From: Anaerolineae bacterium
Lineage (GTDB): Bacteria; Chloroflexota; Anaerolineae; S016-19
Direction of reading: 5' to 3'
Length of the DNA stretch: 33,883 nucleotides
NCBI GenBank assembly: GCA_027016315.1
Contig: JALWAP010000114.1
Coordinates: 1 to 33,883, forward strand
Under the pieces are notes generated by a model. That model saw nothing but the letters and a program-made list of their open reading frames with translations, had not been told where the DNA came from and did no database searches. This document shows positions 4,402-29,528 of the stretch, one piece after another. Each line of letters begins with the position of its first letter. Position 1 is the stretch's first letter. The translations under genes and the position numbers were made by a program.

Positions 4402-4773
4402 TCATTCCTGTAGCTTCTGGACCCGCTCCTCCAGCTCGTCGACTGCTTCTCGGAGCCTCTCGATGTCCTCCTGGGTGGGGAGGCCGAGGCGCTTGAGCAC
4501 CTTTTCCACGGATGCGCCGACCGCATCGAGGAGAATTCCCTCGCTGCCCCTGACCATTGCGGTCAGCAATGACAGGGGGAGGGGAGTGCTGCGGCTTGCT
4601 TTCGTCAGTATTTGCACCATAACCTGCGCTGTGATGTCCCTGCCGGTGGCATGGTCTATCACTTGTACTTCCTCTCCCGATCGGACGATATCGGCGATGT
4701 CGGAGAGTGTCACGTACCGCTTTGCGGCAGCGTCGTAGAACTTGCGGTTTCCGTATCGCTTGATCTTCCTCAT
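4402..4773 (-). CDS. phaR: Polyhydroxyalkanoate synthesis regulator (PhaR-like DNA-binding protein)
   Basis: MRKIKRYGNRKFYDAAAKRYVTLSDIADIVRSGEEVQVIDHATGRDIT is typical of the PHA accumulation regulator DNA-binding domain. Confidence 0.85.
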   Translation of the reverse strand: MRKIKRYGNRKFYDAAAKRYVTLSDIADIVRSGEEVQVIDHATGRDITAQVMVQILTKASRSTPLPLSLLTAMVRGSEGILLDAVGASVEKVLKRLGLPTQEDIERLREAVDELEERVQKLQE

Positions 4774-5237
4774 CCTTTGCTTTCACCTATCATCGCTTCG
4801 ACCTGTTTCGAAAGCTCCTGGATTTGCTGTTGTATCGCAGCCAACGTTTCTTCATCCGGCTGTGAGCCCTTTTTCTGCTCCGCTCTGATCGCATCCAGCT
4901 TACGAGAAAGCTCTCCGATCCGGTTCTCCAACTCTTCGATGTCCTCTTTCTTTGGCAGGTTCATCCGGTCGAGGACTTCTTCGATCTTTTCCTCCAGCTT
5001 GAGCTTCCCTCCTACTTCCCCGGCTTTCTCTCGTTGCCGCTCCATCGCTTCCTTGAGAATCGACTTTGCGTCCTTTTCCGCAATCTCCCCACGCTCTACG
5101 AGCTTGTCGAGGAATTCATCGACTTCGTCCTTGGTCAGAGCCATTGCCCCGATCCCTGCAAGTATCAACCGCTTGACCACGCCGGTCATGTCGAGCATGT
5201 CTTTTTCTTCGCGTTTCCGATCCGCTTTCCTGGCCAT
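4770..5237 (-). CDS. Phasin-family / PHA granule-associated-like protein
   Basis: 155 aa helical protein; ATG at 5237 preceded by GGGAGGTGG; LPKKEDIEELENRIGELSRKLDAI phasin-like motif; stop overlaps start of phaR-like gene. Confidence 0.65.
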   Translation of the reverse strand: MARKADRKREEKDMLDMTGVVKRLILAGIGAMALTKDEVDEFLDKLVERGEIAEKDAKSILKEAMERQREKAGEVGGKLKLEEKIEEVLDRMNLPKKEDIEELENRIGELSRKLDAIRAEQKKGSQPDEETLAAIQQQIQELSKQVEAMIGESKG

Positions 5238-5260
5238 TTCCCACCTCCCGATGCATGATA

Positions 5261-5320
5261 GATAACGCACTGCGTTATCCGATTCAATTACATTATAACG
5301 CAATGCGTCATAGATTTCAA
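5261..5320 (-). promoter_or_regulatory. Sigma70 promoter with two palindromic operators for the phasin/phaR-like operon
   Basis: Minus strand TTGAAA (5320-5315), 17-nt spacer, TATAAT (5297-5292); palindromes GATAACGCA-C-TGCGTTATC (5261-5279) and ATAACGCA-A-TGCGTCAT (5295-5311). Confidence 0.8.
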
Positions 5321-5423
5321 GAAGGTTTTGCTTTAGGAACAAAGTGGACAAGCATGTCAGCGGTAGACATGCCTGCTCTGCTATGTTAAAATCACCCGAG
5401 AACCAACATGAGGGTCTGTAACT

Positions 5424-6686
5424 GTGGAAATTCACTTGACTGATCTCGAACAGGCGATGCTTTCCGGAGAAATGGGGCCCGGAGTCCGGCGTGCGATGGA
5501 GATCGTCGTGACGCTGGGAAGGATCTACGGCGCACTGGATCTCGTGCCCGTTTCCCACGTTCAGGTATCCGGGGTGAGTTACAAGAACCTGGGGAAGGCC
5601 GGGGTAGAATTCTTGCGCCGGTGGGCCGGCGAAGGTGCCCGGGTACGGGTGCCCACCATGCTCAATCCCATGGGGATGGAGGAAGCTTCCTGGCGGGAAC
5701 TCGGCATACCCGAATCGTTCGCGTTGCCGCAAATGGAGGTCGTAAGGGCCTTCGAGAGCATGGGAATTCAGCCGACGTTGAGCTGCACGCCGTACTTCAT
5801 CCCCCAGGGACTTCCACACCGCGGCGATCATGTGGCCTGGGCCGAGTCCTCGGCGGTTGTCTTTGTGAATTCGGTGGTCGGGGCTTACACGAACCGGGAG
5901 GGCGGGCCTGGAGCGCTTGCCGCTGCCATCGTAGGGCGCACGGCCAGGTACGGGTATCACGTTCCGGAGAACCGGCTGGCCACGCACCGCGTGCGGGTTC
6001 GGGCAAGGCTCGAAACGATGGCCGACTTCGGCGCACTTGGGTACCTGGTGGGAAAGGCTGTGCAGGACGGCGTTCCGTACTTCGAGGACCTGGGCGAGCA
6101 GCTTCCGCCGCTTCCTGACGATCTTTCGGAGGGAGGTGCTGCAATAGATCGTCTGAAGACGATGGGAGCGGCCATGGCGGCCAGCGGTTCCATCGCCCTG
6201 TACCACATTGCCGGAGTCACGCCGGAGGCCAAAGAGGCTGGGGAAAGCATCGTCCGCTCCGAGGCGGGGCTTGTCGAGATCGATTCTCTTCGGGAGGCGT
6301 ATGATTTCCTGGACAGAAGCAAGGATGTGGATCGAATCGATCTGGTCAGCATCGGGTGTCCTCACGCGAGCCTAGCGGAAGTTAAGCTCGTCGCGGACTA
6401 CCTGAAAGGGAAGCGTGTCAGGACGAGGTTGTGGATAACCACGTCCAGACACGTGAAGGATCTCGCAAAGCGTTTCGGGCTTGCGTCGATTATCGAGGAA
6501 GCCGGTGGGCGGATCGTGGCGGATACCTGTACGGTAGTGGCCCCTATCAACGCTATCGGGGTCAAGACGATGGCGACGAACGCTGCGAAGACCGCCTGGT
6601 ACGCGCCTTCCCATTCCGGCGTTGCTGTCCGGTATGGTTCGCTGGAACAATGCCTGGAAGCAGCCATAACCGGGCGATGGAAGTGA
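5424..6686 (+). CDS. Aconitase X (AcnX, DUF521) catalytic large subunit
   Basis: Start MEIHLTDLEQAMLSGEMGPGVRRAMEI, cysteines in LSCTPYF, IGCPHASL and ADTCTVVAPI; GTG start. Confidence 0.85.
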   Translation: MEIHLTDLEQAMLSGEMGPGVRRAMEIVVTLGRIYGALDLVPVSHVQVSGVSYKNLGKAGVEFLRRWAGEGARVRVPTMLNPMGMEEASWRELGIPESFALPQMEVVRAFESMGIQPTLSCTPYFIPQGLPHRGDHVAWAESSAVVFVNSVVGAYTNREGGPGALAAAIVGRTARYGYHVPENRLATHRVRVRARLETMADFGALGYLVGKAVQDGVPYFEDLGEQLPPLPDDLSEGGAAIDRLKTMGAAMAASGSIALYHIAGVTPEAKEAGESIVRSEAGLVEIDSLREAYDFLDRSKDVDRIDLVSIGCPHASLAEVKLVADYLKGKRVRTRLWITTSRHVKDLAKRFGLASIIEEAGGRIVADTCTVVAPINAIGVKTMATNAAKTAWYAPSHSGVAVRYGSLEQCLEAAITGRWK

Positions 6687-9469: not shown

Positions 9470-9504
9470 ATCGAGACCGCTTGTTTTCCGCAAAGGAGGG
9501 GAAA

Positions 9505-11184
9505 ATGTACGATAGAGAGAAGTTAAAACGCATCCGCGAGCACAAGGAAGAGTGGGAGAAAACCACGCTTCAGAAGTCGATTTCTCGTTTCCCAGAACGA
9601 CAGGAAGAGTTCGTAACCACCTCCAGCGCCCCTGTGGAACGCCTGTACACCCCAGACGACGTCGCCGACCTTGATTACGAGCGCGATATCGGGTTCCCTG
9701 GCGAATTTCCATTTACCCGCGGCGTTCACGCCACCATGTACCGGGGCAAGCTCTGGACCATGCGGATGTTCGCCGGATTCGGCACGGCGGAGGAAACCAA
9801 CGCCCGCTTCAAGTATCTGCTTTCCCAGGGGGAGACCGGCCTTTCCATCGCTTTCGACATGCCAACCCTCTACGGCCTCGACACCGACGACCCGCGGGCG
9901 GTGGGGGAGTTCGGCAAATGCGGCGTGGCTGTCTCCTCGCTGAAGGACATGGAAGTGCTCATGGACGGCATCCCAATGGACAAGATCAGCACGTCCATGA
10001 CCATCAACAGCCCTGCGGCGGTCATTTGGGCTTTCTACATCGCCGCGGCGGAGAACAAAGGCATCCACCGGAGCAAGCTGGCTGGCACCATCCAGAATGA
10101 CATCCTGAAGGAGTACATCGCACAGAAAGAGTTCCTCTTCCCGCCGGAGCCCTCCATGCGCTTGGTGACGGACACCATCGAGTTCGGCAGCAAGGAGATG
10201 CCCCTTTGGAACACCATCAGCATCTCCGGCTATCACATCCGGGAGGCGGGGGCCACGGCGGTGCAGGAACTGGCTTTCACCCTGGCCGACGGGTTCACCT
10301 ACGTAGAGCACGCACTGGCCCGCGGACTTGAGATCGATTCGTTCGCACCACGGCTTTCGTTCTTCTTCAACTCCCACAACGATTTCTTCGAGGAGATTGC
10401 CAAGTTCCGGGCTGCCCGGCGCATCTGGGCAAAGGCGATGCGTGACAAATACGGCGCCAAGAATCCGCGCTCCTGGCTCCTGCGGTTCCACACTCAGACG
10501 GCTGGGTGCTCGCTGACGGCCCAGCAGCCGGAAAACAACATCATCCGGACGACCATCCAGGCGCTGGCGGCGGTTCTGGGCGGCACCCAGAGCCTCCACA
10601 CCAACTCCATGGACGAGGCGCTGGCGCTGCCCAGCGAGAAAGCGGTCACCATCGCCCTCCGGACGCAGCAGATCATCGCCTACGAGAGCGGCGTTGCGAA
10701 CACTGTCGACCCGCTGGCCGGGTCGTTCTTCGTGGAAGCGCTGACCAACCGCATGGAAGAAGAAGCCAACGCATATTTCGAGAAGATCGAAGCCATGGGA
10801 GGGGTGATAGCCGGGATCGAAAACGGATTCTTCCAGCGAGAACTGGCCGAATCGGCGTTCCGGTATCAGCAGGAGATAGACGAGAAGAAGCGGATCGTCG
10901 TCGGCGTTAACGAGTTTGTCGACGAATCTCCCATCGAGATTCCTCTGCTGGAAATGGATCCGAAAGGCTACGAGCGACAGGTTGCCAGGCTGGAACGGGT
11001 TCGGAAGGAGCGCGACAACGAGAAAGTTGGAAAGGCGCTTCTGGCGCTCGAGAAAGCTACCAAAGAAGGCGAGAATGTGATGCCTTACCTCATCGACGCA
11101 GCGCATGCCTACGCCACTCTTGGCGAGATCATGGGAGTGTTCCGAGACATTTTCGGGGAGTACCAGGAACCGGTATTCTTCTGA
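9505..11184 (+). CDS. B12-dependent acyl-CoA mutase, catalytic large subunit (annotates as methylmalonyl-CoA mutase; isobutyryl-CoA-mutase-like residues)
   Basis: [77 protein letters not shown] 9505 preceded by AAAGGAGGGG. Confidence 0.93.
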
Positions 11185-11277
11185 TCCTGCCTCGAGTGCA
11201 TTTGAACGACAGATATTTCGTGTAGTGAGGCAACTACACCAAAACACCAACCAAACAACCCAAAAAGGAGGCCAAAC

Positions 11278-11700
11278 ATGCCACGCAAGCGAAAAAAGAT
11301 CCGGGTCTTGATAGCAAAACCTGGACTCGATGGTCACGATAGGGGAGCGAAAGTGGTTGCACGGACACTGCGGGATGCAGGCATGGAAGTGATTTACACG
11401 GGCATTCGACAGACTCCCGAGATGATCGCCGAAGCAGCGTTACAGGAAGACGTGGATGTGGTGGGGCTTTCGGTGCTCTCAGGGGCACACATGGCCCTTG
11501 CGCCAAAAGTGGTGGAGCTCCTGAAGAAGGAAGGAATGGATAACGTGCTCTTGCTCATCGGTGGCATCATTCCGGACGAGGACGTGGAAAAGTTGAAGGC
11601 GCTCGGCTTCAAAGGGGTTTTCGGCCCCGGAACTTTGACGCAGGAAATCGTCGATTTCATTTACAAAGAGCTCGGCCTCGAAGAGCCGCAGCCAGCGTGA
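11278..11700 (+). CDS. Cobalamin-binding small subunit of acyl-CoA mutase
   Basis: DxHxxG in [34 protein letters not shown]. Confidence 0.92.
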
Positions 11701-11711
11701 GGGCTTCGCTA

Positions 11712-12698
11712 ATGGACGAACTGGTGCGACGCGTTCTGGACGGTGATAGGCGAGCGCTGGCGCGGGCGATATCGATCGTAGAGGACGATGGTGAAGACGC
11801 GAGGGAACTGCTGATGGCGCTTTACCCTCACACAGGGCGCGGTTACGTTATCGGCGTGACCGGCGCGCCCGGCACGGGCAAATCCACTTTGGTCAACAAC
11901 ATGGCCAAGGAGTACCGAAAGCGGGGATTGCGCGTCGGGATAATCGCAATTGACCCCACAAGCCCGTTTTCTGGTGGTGCGCTGTTGGGTGACCGTGTAC
12001 GGATGAAAGACCTCTCCGGCGATCCGGGTATCTTCATCCGCAGCATGGCGACCAGGGGAAGCCTTGGTGGGCTTGCCAAGGCAACCTCAGACGTGATCAT
12101 GGTGATGGATGCAGCAGGTTACGATCGAATCATCGTGGAGACCGTAGGGGTCGGTCAAGCCGAGGTGGATATCGCGAGCGAAGCGCACACCACGATCGTC
12201 GTTGAAAGCCCCGGCCTCGGCGACGAAATCCAGGCGATAAAGGCGGGCATTCTCGAAATCGCCGACATTTTCGTGGTTAACAAAGCCGACCGGGAAGGCG
12301 CAGATCATACCGTCATGGCGCTTAAGATGATGCTTGGACTTTCGCCAAAGACAGTGGCGCACCATGGCAAGGTGATGAAGACGGGTGATGCCACCCTGCC
12401 GAAAGAAGGCTGGACACCGCCAATAGTCAAAACGGTGGCGATCCGAAACGAAGGAACGAAGGAACTGGTAGACCTCATCGAGAGACATGCTGAGTACCTC
12501 AGGAAAAGCGGGCAACTCGAAGAAAGAGAGCTCAAGCGCACGCAAGCGGATATAACCAACGCATTGCAGAACCTTTTCCTGGAAAACCTGCTCTCTCATA
12601 TCACAGAGTCGGAGTGGAGCGAGGCGGTGAAATCCGTCGCTGCCAGAGATACCGACCCATACTCCAAAGCCAAAGAGATGCTCGAGAGACACAGCTGA
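11712..12698 (+). CDS. meaB: MeaB/ArgK-type GTPase chaperone of B12 mutase
   Basis: VTGAPGTGKSTLVNNM, AIDPTSPFSGGALLGDRVRM, IVETVGVGQAEVDI, VVNKADREGAD; GTG at 11697 is an alternative start. Confidence 0.92.
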   Translation: MDELVRRVLDGDRRALARAISIVEDDGEDARELLMALYPHTGRGYVIGVTGAPGTGKSTLVNNMAKEYRKRGLRVGIIAIDPTSPFSGGALLGDRVRMKDLSGDPGIFIRSMATRGSLGGLAKATSDVIMVMDAAGYDRIIVETVGVGQAEVDIASEAHTTIVVESPGLGDEIQAIKAGILEIADIFVVNKADREGADHTVMALKMMLGLSPKTVAHHGKVMKTGDATLPKEGWTPPIVKTVAIRNEGTKELVDLIERHAEYLRKSGQLEERELKRTQADITNALQNLFLENLLSHITESEWSEAVKSVAARDTDPYSKAKEMLERHS

Positions 12699-12856: not shown

Positions 12857-12929
12857 GCCCCCATCGTCTAGAGGACTAGGACACCGGCCTTTCAAGCCGG
12901 TAACAGGGGTTCGAATCCCCTTGGGGGCA
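12857..12929 (+). tRNA. tRNA-Glu (TTC)
   Basis: Acceptor GCCCCCA/TGGGGGC, anticodon arm CCGGC-CTTTCAA-GCCGG, T arm AGGGGTTCGAATCCCCT. Confidence 0.95.
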
Positions 12930-27730: not shown

Positions 27731-28002
27731 TGGCCGTGCTAAGCGGGGAGCTAGCGGTGCCCTGTACCCGAAATCCGCTCAAGCGGGGCTTAATTCCCCT
27801 CTTGAGGGCCGGTGGTGTCGAGTCTGCCCTGGTCAAGCGGTGTGGAAGGTTGGGTCCCGCGCGGCAGGCAGCCGTGAACCTGGTCAGGTCCGGAAGGAAG
27901 CAGCCATAAGCGGTGTAGCCTGGGCGACGCGGGGGTGCCTGGCCGGAGCTGGCTAACCAGGGTAAGGCGGTACCACCGGTTCGAGAGAGGGGTGCACGGC
28001 CA
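27731..28002 (+). ncRNA. ffs: SRP RNA, large bacterial type with Alu domain
   Basis: Domain IV GAACCTGGTCAGGTCCGGAAGGAAGCAGCCATAAG; Alu-like GTGCTAAGCGGGGAGCTAGCGGTGCCCTGTACCCG; terminal helix GGCCGTGC (27732) / GCACGGCC (27994). Confidence 0.93.
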
Positions 28003-28077: not shown

Positions 28078-29224
28078 ATGGATTTCGAGCTCGACGAAGA
28101 GCAGCGAATGGTCAGGCAGGCAGTCCGCGAATTCGTGGAACGGGAAGTCAAACCGCGTGCCAGAGAGGTAGACGAAACAGGCCAGTTCCCATGGGAGACC
28201 ATCCGTAAGATGGGGCCGCTTGGCTTCCTTGGCATCAACATGCCGGAGGAATACGGAGGCGCAGGTGGAGACAAGATAAGCCTGGCCATTCTGTTGGAAG
28301 AGCTGGGGAGAGGCTGCGGCTCCACCGGGCTCATAACGGAAGCGCACATCTGCCTTGCTTCTGCTTCCATAGCGGATTTTGGCACGGAGGAACAGAAGCG
28401 AAAGTACCTGGTGCCGCTTGCACAAGGCCATATGCTTGGTGCCCTTTCCCTGACCGAGCCAGGCGCTGGCTCGGACCTGGTAGGTGGAGTCAAAAACCAC
28501 AGCCCATCGCGACGGCAATGAGTGGGTCCTGAACGGGAGCAAGATGTGGACCACGAACGCAGGCGTCGCGGGCGTCATCGTCGTGCTCGCCCGAACGGAC
28601 CCCAGGGGTGGATCGCATAGCCTCAGCGAATTCATCGTGCCAAAAGACACGCCCGGGTTACACGTCGACCCGCCGGAGAAAAAGATGGGGCTGCACGGGT
28701 GCTGGAGCCACGCCGTAAGTCTGGAGGACGTGCGCGTGCCGCTCGACAATTTGCTGGGCGAGGAAGGGCGGGGAATCCATCAGGCGTTGCACGTGCTGGA
28801 CGGCGGCAGGATCGGCATCGGTGCGCTGAGCGTTGGGCTTGCACAGGGAGCATACGAAGCGGCTCTGAGCTATGCCAGGGAACGGATGACTTTCGGTAAA
28901 AAGCTCATCGAGCACCAGGCGATCCAGTTCAAACTGGCGGACATGGCGACCAAAATCCACCTTGCGAGGCTCGGAGTGCTTCACGCAGCCTGGCTCAAAG
29001 AGCAGGGACGACCGTACACGAAGGAAGCCGGCATGGCGAAACTCTTCGCCACGGAAATGGCCGAATGGGTCGCTTATCAGGCAATTCAAATACACGGTGG
29101 CTACGGTTACAGCCGGGAATACCCGGTCGAGAGGATCTACAGAGACGCGCGGCTGATGACCATCGGAGAGGGGACAAGCGAAATCCAGCGGCTTGTCATA
29201 GCACGTCAGATCGCCCGCGAGTAA
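28078..29224 (+). pseudogene. Acyl-CoA dehydrogenase, interrupted by frameshift (ORFs 28078..28521 and 28484..29224)
   Basis: N-part MDFELDEEQRMVRQAVREFVERE...[13 protein letters not shown] and C-part [21 protein letters not shown]...[36 protein letters not shown] rejoin by +1 shift at A5 run 28492-28496. Confidence 0.85.
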
Positions 29225-29282: not shown

Positions 29283-29359
29283 CGGGGCGTGGCGCAGTTG
29301 GCTAGCGCGCAGCGTTTGGGACGCTGAAGTCGGAGGTTCGAGTCCTCTCGCCCCGACCA
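29283..29359 (+). tRNA. tRNA-Pro (TGG)
   Basis: CGGGGCG/CGCCCCG acceptor, anticodon loop TTTGGGA, encoded CCA. Confidence 0.95.
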
Positions 29360-29376: not shown

Positions 29377-29447
29377 GCGGGTGTAGCTCAATGGTAGAGC
29401 CCCAGCCTTCCAAGCTGGTCGTGGGGGTTCGATTCCCCTCACCCGCT
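29377..29447 (+). tRNA. tRNA-Gly (TCC)
   Basis: GCGGGTG/CACCCGC acceptor, anticodon loop CTTCCAA; no encoded CCA. Confidence 0.95.
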
Positions 29448-29454
29448 TTTGAAC

Positions 29455-29528
29455 GGGCCCCTAGCTTAATCGGTCAAAGCAGCGGTCTCATAAACCGCTG
29501 AGTCTGGGTTCGAGTCCCAGGGGGCCCA
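29455..29528 (+). tRNA. tRNA with CAT anticodon (Met elongator or Ile2)
   Basis: GGGCCCC/GGGGCCC acceptor, anticodon loop CTCATAA, T arm CTGGGTTCGAGTCCCAG. Confidence 0.93.

Follow-up and report, generated by a model that had tools for sequence, protein, structure and literature searches.

A split isobutyryl-CoA-mutase-type operon of an Anaerolineae bacterium, whose small subunit and MeaB probably also serve a methylmalonyl-CoA mutase

Three genes on one strand of an Anaerolineae contig encode the large subunit, the small cobalamin-binding subunit and the MeaB-type GTPase chaperone of a split acyl-CoA mutase (Table 1). The locus raises two questions: which acyl-CoA is isomerised, and whether the small subunit and MeaB belong to this large subunit alone. 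The features of the window (the whole stretch of DNA analysed, 33,883 nucleotides) and of its relatives argue with good confidence for an unfused AdoCbl-dependent isobutyryl-CoA mutase (ICM), whose small subunit and MeaB probably also serve a methylmalonyl-CoA mutase (MCM). HCM, 2-hydroxyisobutyryl-CoA mutase. F/Q, Y/R and I/Q: residues at positions 89 and 207 (MCM numbering).

Table 1. Features of the mutase operon, with positions in the window.
Feature	Position	Strand	Basis
Ribosome-binding site AAAGGAGG of the large subunit, strong, 5′ of the ATG	9492..9499	+	Read from sequence
Large (substrate-binding) subunit of a split acyl-CoA mutase, probably of isobutyryl-CoA-mutase type, 559 aa	9505..11184	+	PF01642 and TIGR00641 above cut-off; tree
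Phe89, codon TTC (Tyr89 in MCM, Ile in HCM)	9769..9771	+	Alignments
Leu122, third position that sorts the groups (split Y/R proteins have Gln)	9868..9870	+	Alignment columns
Gln207, codon CAG (Arg207 in MCM)	10123..10125	+	Alignments
Small cobalamin-binding subunit, 140 aa, intact ORF	11278..11700	+	Full-length TIGR00640 match above cut-off
MeaB-type GTPase chaperone, 333 aa, intact ORF	11697..12698	+	Full-length TIGR00750 match above cut-off

All three ORFs are whole and the profile matches of the small subunit and MeaB are full-length; the split large/small/MeaB layout described in the sequence-only reading is intact. The start of MeaB falls within the end of the small-subunit gene, overlapping its stop, on the same strand as the large subunit. 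Since MeaB is closely followed by a promoter-like site and a tRNA, the transcription unit probably consists of the three genes alone. No riboswitch was found by Rfam, and no pathway-specific genes were found in the window flanks of the operon. On the large subunit, TIGR00641, a general model, is the only NCBIfam model that reaches its cut-off; NF045497 (IcmF) is far below its cut-off, and the B12, GTPase and mutase parts are three separate ORFs.

The window also includes a bacterial large signal recognition particle RNA (27734-27999, +), four tRNA genes (12857-12929, 29283-29356, 29377-29447 and 29455-29528, all +) and a 531-aa ORF (4770-6365, −) whose residues 398-493, towards the C-terminus, are phasin-like (PF05597). 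In an acyl-CoA dehydrogenase (28078-29224, +), the N-domain (28078-28521) and the middle plus C domains (28484-29224) are encoded by separate ORFs that overlap and differ in frame; the frameshift is either real or assembly-made.

In MCM, the methylmalonyl carboxylate is held by the pair Tyr89/Arg207. The large subunit was aligned with HMMER to the MCMs of P. shermanii (1req) and human (2xij), to 5req and to HCM (4r3u). MCM Tyr89 and Arg207 are chain positions 88 and 206 (+1 for the removed Met). The F89 and Q207 regions are gap-free in all these alignments, and the codons encode Phe and Gln. The two residues thus fall on MCM Tyr89 and Arg207, as had been proposed from a hand alignment; non-equivalence of the sites, which had been named as an outcome that would overturn the proposal, was checked and is not the case. 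The 5req chain, which we take to be the Y89F mutant of MCM, carries Phe at site 89. In HCM, site 89 is Ile and the counterpart of Ala116 is Asp, also as had been stated. The window protein lacks both the HCM signature Ile89/Asp116 (it has Phe89 and Ala116) and the MCM signature Tyr89 plus Arg207 (Phe and Gln instead). Lys is indeed present at the position of MCM Arg82, but its value as evidence did not hold: K and R vary in both types, and Lys82 was discarded as a discriminator (K in 51/128 F/Q and 5/32 Y/R proteins). F89 and Q207 are not there by chance, since they are invariant among the orthologues read across Chloroflexota (67-76% identity).

The relatives read (169 rows) came from Chloroflexota, Actinomycetota and plasmids as well as from 80 named genome contigs. 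The pair is F/Q in 128, Y/R in 36 and I/Q in 3 (all HCM); the remaining 2 rows are one fragment and one divergent Helarchaeota paralogue. Mixed pairs (F/R or Y/Q) were found in none of the 169 rows, and in intact typical rows the two sites are coupled as F/Q, Y/R or I/Q only. At site 89, F occurs throughout the F/Q set (128/128) and Y throughout the Y/R set (32/32). An equally clean split is seen at position 122, with Leu/Ile in F/Q and Gln in Y/R proteins (human and Propionibacterium MCM have His), and position 208 separates F/Q from Y/R nearly as well. The sorting of mutases by two such sites is a published practice (PMC7238569, which cites Jost et al. 2015).

Among the relatives, a divergent subfamily of split acyl-CoA mutases, which shares about 45% identity with the window protein, is found in Helarchaeota (L135/L220, G304:C6:158968-160635) and in the Actinomycetota-phylum sample (L217, L218, L219; G373, G384, G406). 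The Gln207 region is replaced in its members (ILTMTIGYVPW in most), and SGYHIRE is changed to TTYNYRE, hence Asn at the position of MCM His244. All of them have an adjacent small subunit, and L135/L220 an adjacent MeaB as well. Another divergent split mutase (L221, G420:C67; L222, G398:C142; 42% identical) has the active-site motifs IRQINGFG, ILEEVVRSG and NLNGYNLHDFG, and its flanking genes encode a small subunit and MeaB.

A tree of 116 rows was built with the trait columns (82, 89, 116, 117 and 207) masked. One set (SH-aLRT 99) groups 78 F/Q rows, including the window protein, which lies within a mainly Chloroflexota subset of 33 rows (support 99). The residue state changes three times on the tree versus about 33 times when shuffled. 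Two rows of the F/Q set, L165 and L169, come from actinomycetes with large genomes; L165 presumably matches S. cinnamonensis IcmA and is used as the anchor for the Streptomyces-type IcmA. HCM is a separate group on a long branch. Placement in an MCM clade, which together with measured methylmalonyl-CoA activity had been named in advance as contrary evidence, is not seen, the window protein being found in the F/Q set with the presumed IcmA. The deep branches are weakly resolved, and at the base F/Q (one row) and Y/R (two rows) proteins of Bathyarchaeota are intermingled.

Two large subunits were found by a search of the whole genome, that of the window and one on contig C235. The latter has Tyr89 (WTMRQYAGY) and Arg207 (LKEYIARGT), is 62% identical to the former and groups with Y/R proteins in the masked tree, the window protein being apart from them. 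A methylmalonyl-CoA epimerase is found on contig C62 of the same genome. Having its own Y/R paralogue and epimerase, the genome does not need the window enzyme as an MCM.

For its two large subunits, the source assembly (G000; 306 contigs, 92% completeness) has a single TIGR00640 match and a single MeaB, both in the window. As candidates for a second small subunit, the B12 protein of C47 was rejected, as it looks like a corrinoid protein of the methyltransferase type, and so were the matches on C91, C109 and C128 (radical-SAM-like or unrelated). Because this assembly is fragmentary, near-finished Chloroflexota (at most 10 contigs) were examined. Sixteen of them carry a single TIGR00640 match and a single MeaB each: 15 have two large subunits (G005, G112, G208, G046, G088, G092, G150, G158, G279, G288, G110, G124, G300, G281 and G218) and one has three (G146). 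Assemblies in one contig include G005, G112, G208, G092 and G279. For 13 of the 15, the two large subunits were read directly and are an F/Q protein and an unfused Y/R protein. The single small subunit and MeaB stand together; they adjoin the F/Q gene in G158, are close to a Y/R gene in G146 and are distant from both large subunits in G005 and G092. The second mutase of G118 and G166 is long and B12-fused, and these genomes have two B12 domains and two MeaBs. In an Anaerolinea sp. MAG (L054, 7850-12500), an F/Q and a Y/R gene on one strand are followed by the single small subunit and MeaB, which is a natural arrangement for testing subunit sharing. Elsewhere (L014, G029:C1:36528-40981), F/Q and Y/R large-subunit genes are near each other on one strand.

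A small subunit and a MeaB common to both mutases are the best explanation of this copy-number pattern. Those of the window, being the sole ones detected, probably pair also with the Y/R subunit of C235. The operon had been proposed to be a functional holoenzyme set; its genes are intact, but its large subunit is probably not the only one that its small subunit and MeaB serve. For much of Chloroflexota, it appears likely that one small subunit and one MeaB are exchanged between ICM and MCM, with B12 loading pooled and substrate choice lying wholly in the large subunit. It is rather unlikely that the small subunit and MeaB serve the window enzyme alone, the partner of the Y/R subunit being missing from the assembly or being an unrecognised protein. 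The fragmentary assembly would allow this, and the small-subunit tree, which is mostly poorly supported and samples small subunits with an adjacent large subunit, leans the same way: F/Q-adjacent and Y/R-adjacent ones partly cluster apart (5 changes versus 16.7 when shuffled). However, the same count is found in near-finished genomes, several in one contig; the location of the single pair varies; a B12-fused second mutase goes with two MeaBs; and in L054 a single small subunit and a single MeaB stand in the same run of genes as both large subunits. No report of such subunit sharing was found in a literature search of limited extent.

Gene neighbours, as an independent line of evidence, were counted within 8 kb at loci of a single type (57 F/Q and 24 Y/R); the loci are related and some are ended by contig edges, and p-values would be too optimistic. 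Methylmalonyl-CoA epimerase is found near 16/24 Y/R versus 2/57 F/Q genes, decarboxylase beta subunit near 10/24 versus 0/57, biotin carrier near 10/24 versus 0/57 and carboxyltransferase near 15/24 versus 6/57. Acyl-CoA dehydrogenase is found near 13/57 F/Q versus 0/24 Y/R genes, and at least one of five beta-oxidation families near 21/57 versus 1/24; most F/Q loci have no beta-oxidation gene inside 8 kb. The direction is clear: Y/R genes go with methylmalonyl-CoA metabolism and F/Q genes with acyl-CoA oxidation.

In the proposed mechanism, the large subunit would bind an acyl-CoA, Phe89/Gln207 being in place of the carboxylate-holding Tyr/Arg; owing to this replacement, the substrate should be a non-carboxylated acyl-CoA. 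The earlier proposal of isobutyryl-/butyryl-CoA or a related substrate gains support from the equivalence of the sites, the placement in the F/Q set and the separate Y/R paralogue. The most likely reaction would be isobutyryl-CoA <-> n-butyryl-CoA, whichever its direction in the cell, linking valine (branched-chain acyl-CoA) breakdown to beta-oxidation. The small subunit would carry the coenzyme and MeaB would gate its loading and repair. Thiolases and acyl-CoA dehydrogenases are encoded in the genome, as is one E1-type dehydrogenase; this is permissive for the pathway only.

Several known systems resemble the window enzyme. The large subunit of IcmA/IcmB (Streptomyces cinnamonensis, EC 5.4.99.13) is likewise unfused and belongs to the same length class. 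The IcmA-like L165, as we identify it, shares the Phe/Gln pair, Ala116, Leu122 and membership of the F/Q set, but is only about 53% identical; neither a small subunit nor a MeaB was found near L165, whereas in the window all three genes form one operon. HcmA/HcmB (4r3u; Xanthobacter, Methylibium) is unfused, has Gln207 and is about 50% identical; 4r3u is the top-scoring relative of the window protein among solved structures. It differs by Ile89, Asp116, an AMP-ligase gene in the HCM operon and its separate long-branch group. The split Y/R MCM (C235 paralogue) has the same split architecture and probably the same small subunit and MeaB, but has Tyr89, Arg207 and Gln122, and methylmalonyl-CoA pathway neighbours in relatives. 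IcmF, with the same expected reaction and the same three functional domains, is one chain, whereas the window has three genes. Syntrophothermus lipocalidus is reported to degrade isobutyrate via butyrate, and Slip_0757-0760 has been assigned there as an isobutyryl-CoA mutase cluster (PMC5017805). Compared by description, this cluster has, like the window, separate N- and C-terminal domain proteins and a MeaB-like protein; it has an adenosyltransferase, which the window lacks (PMC5017805).

The same mutase could have another main substrate (isovaleryl/pivalyl-, 2-methylbutyryl- or hydroxyacyl-CoA), which is improbable. The HCM signature is lacking, the presumed Streptomyces-type IcmA is in the F/Q set and the beta-oxidation neighbours suit butyryl-CoA; on the other side, what the F/Q pair marks is the lack of the carboxylate contacts rather than a particular acyl group, the F/Q set is large and varied, and IcmF has been reported to act on isobutyryl/n-butyryl- plus pivalyl/isovaleryl-CoA (PMC10481361). 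That the window enzyme is an MCM with unusual residues, as its Pfam and NCBIfam family name and the presence of both subunits and MeaB would have it, is hardly credible given that both carboxylate-contact positions are altered, invariantly among orthologues, that a Y/R paralogue is in the same genome and that epimerase is rare at F/Q loci.

As judged by sequence, the window enzyme is most probably an unfused isobutyryl-CoA mutase, a known kind of enzyme; F/Q proteins like it are widespread in bacteria and archaea and are mislabelled. Mislabelling had been predicted and does occur: annotated plasmid relatives are named 'methylmalonyl-CoA mutase family protein', the NCBIfam cut-off being met only by the general model. 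Label-based reconstructions of propionate, 3-hydroxypropionate and branched-chain acid breakdown can consequently be wrong; positions 89 and 207, plus 122, sort F/Q from Y/R proteins. The sharing of the cofactor carrier is the more novel point and one that specialists may not expect. If one small subunit and one chaperone do serve two mutases, both pathways would compete for the same loaded cofactor.
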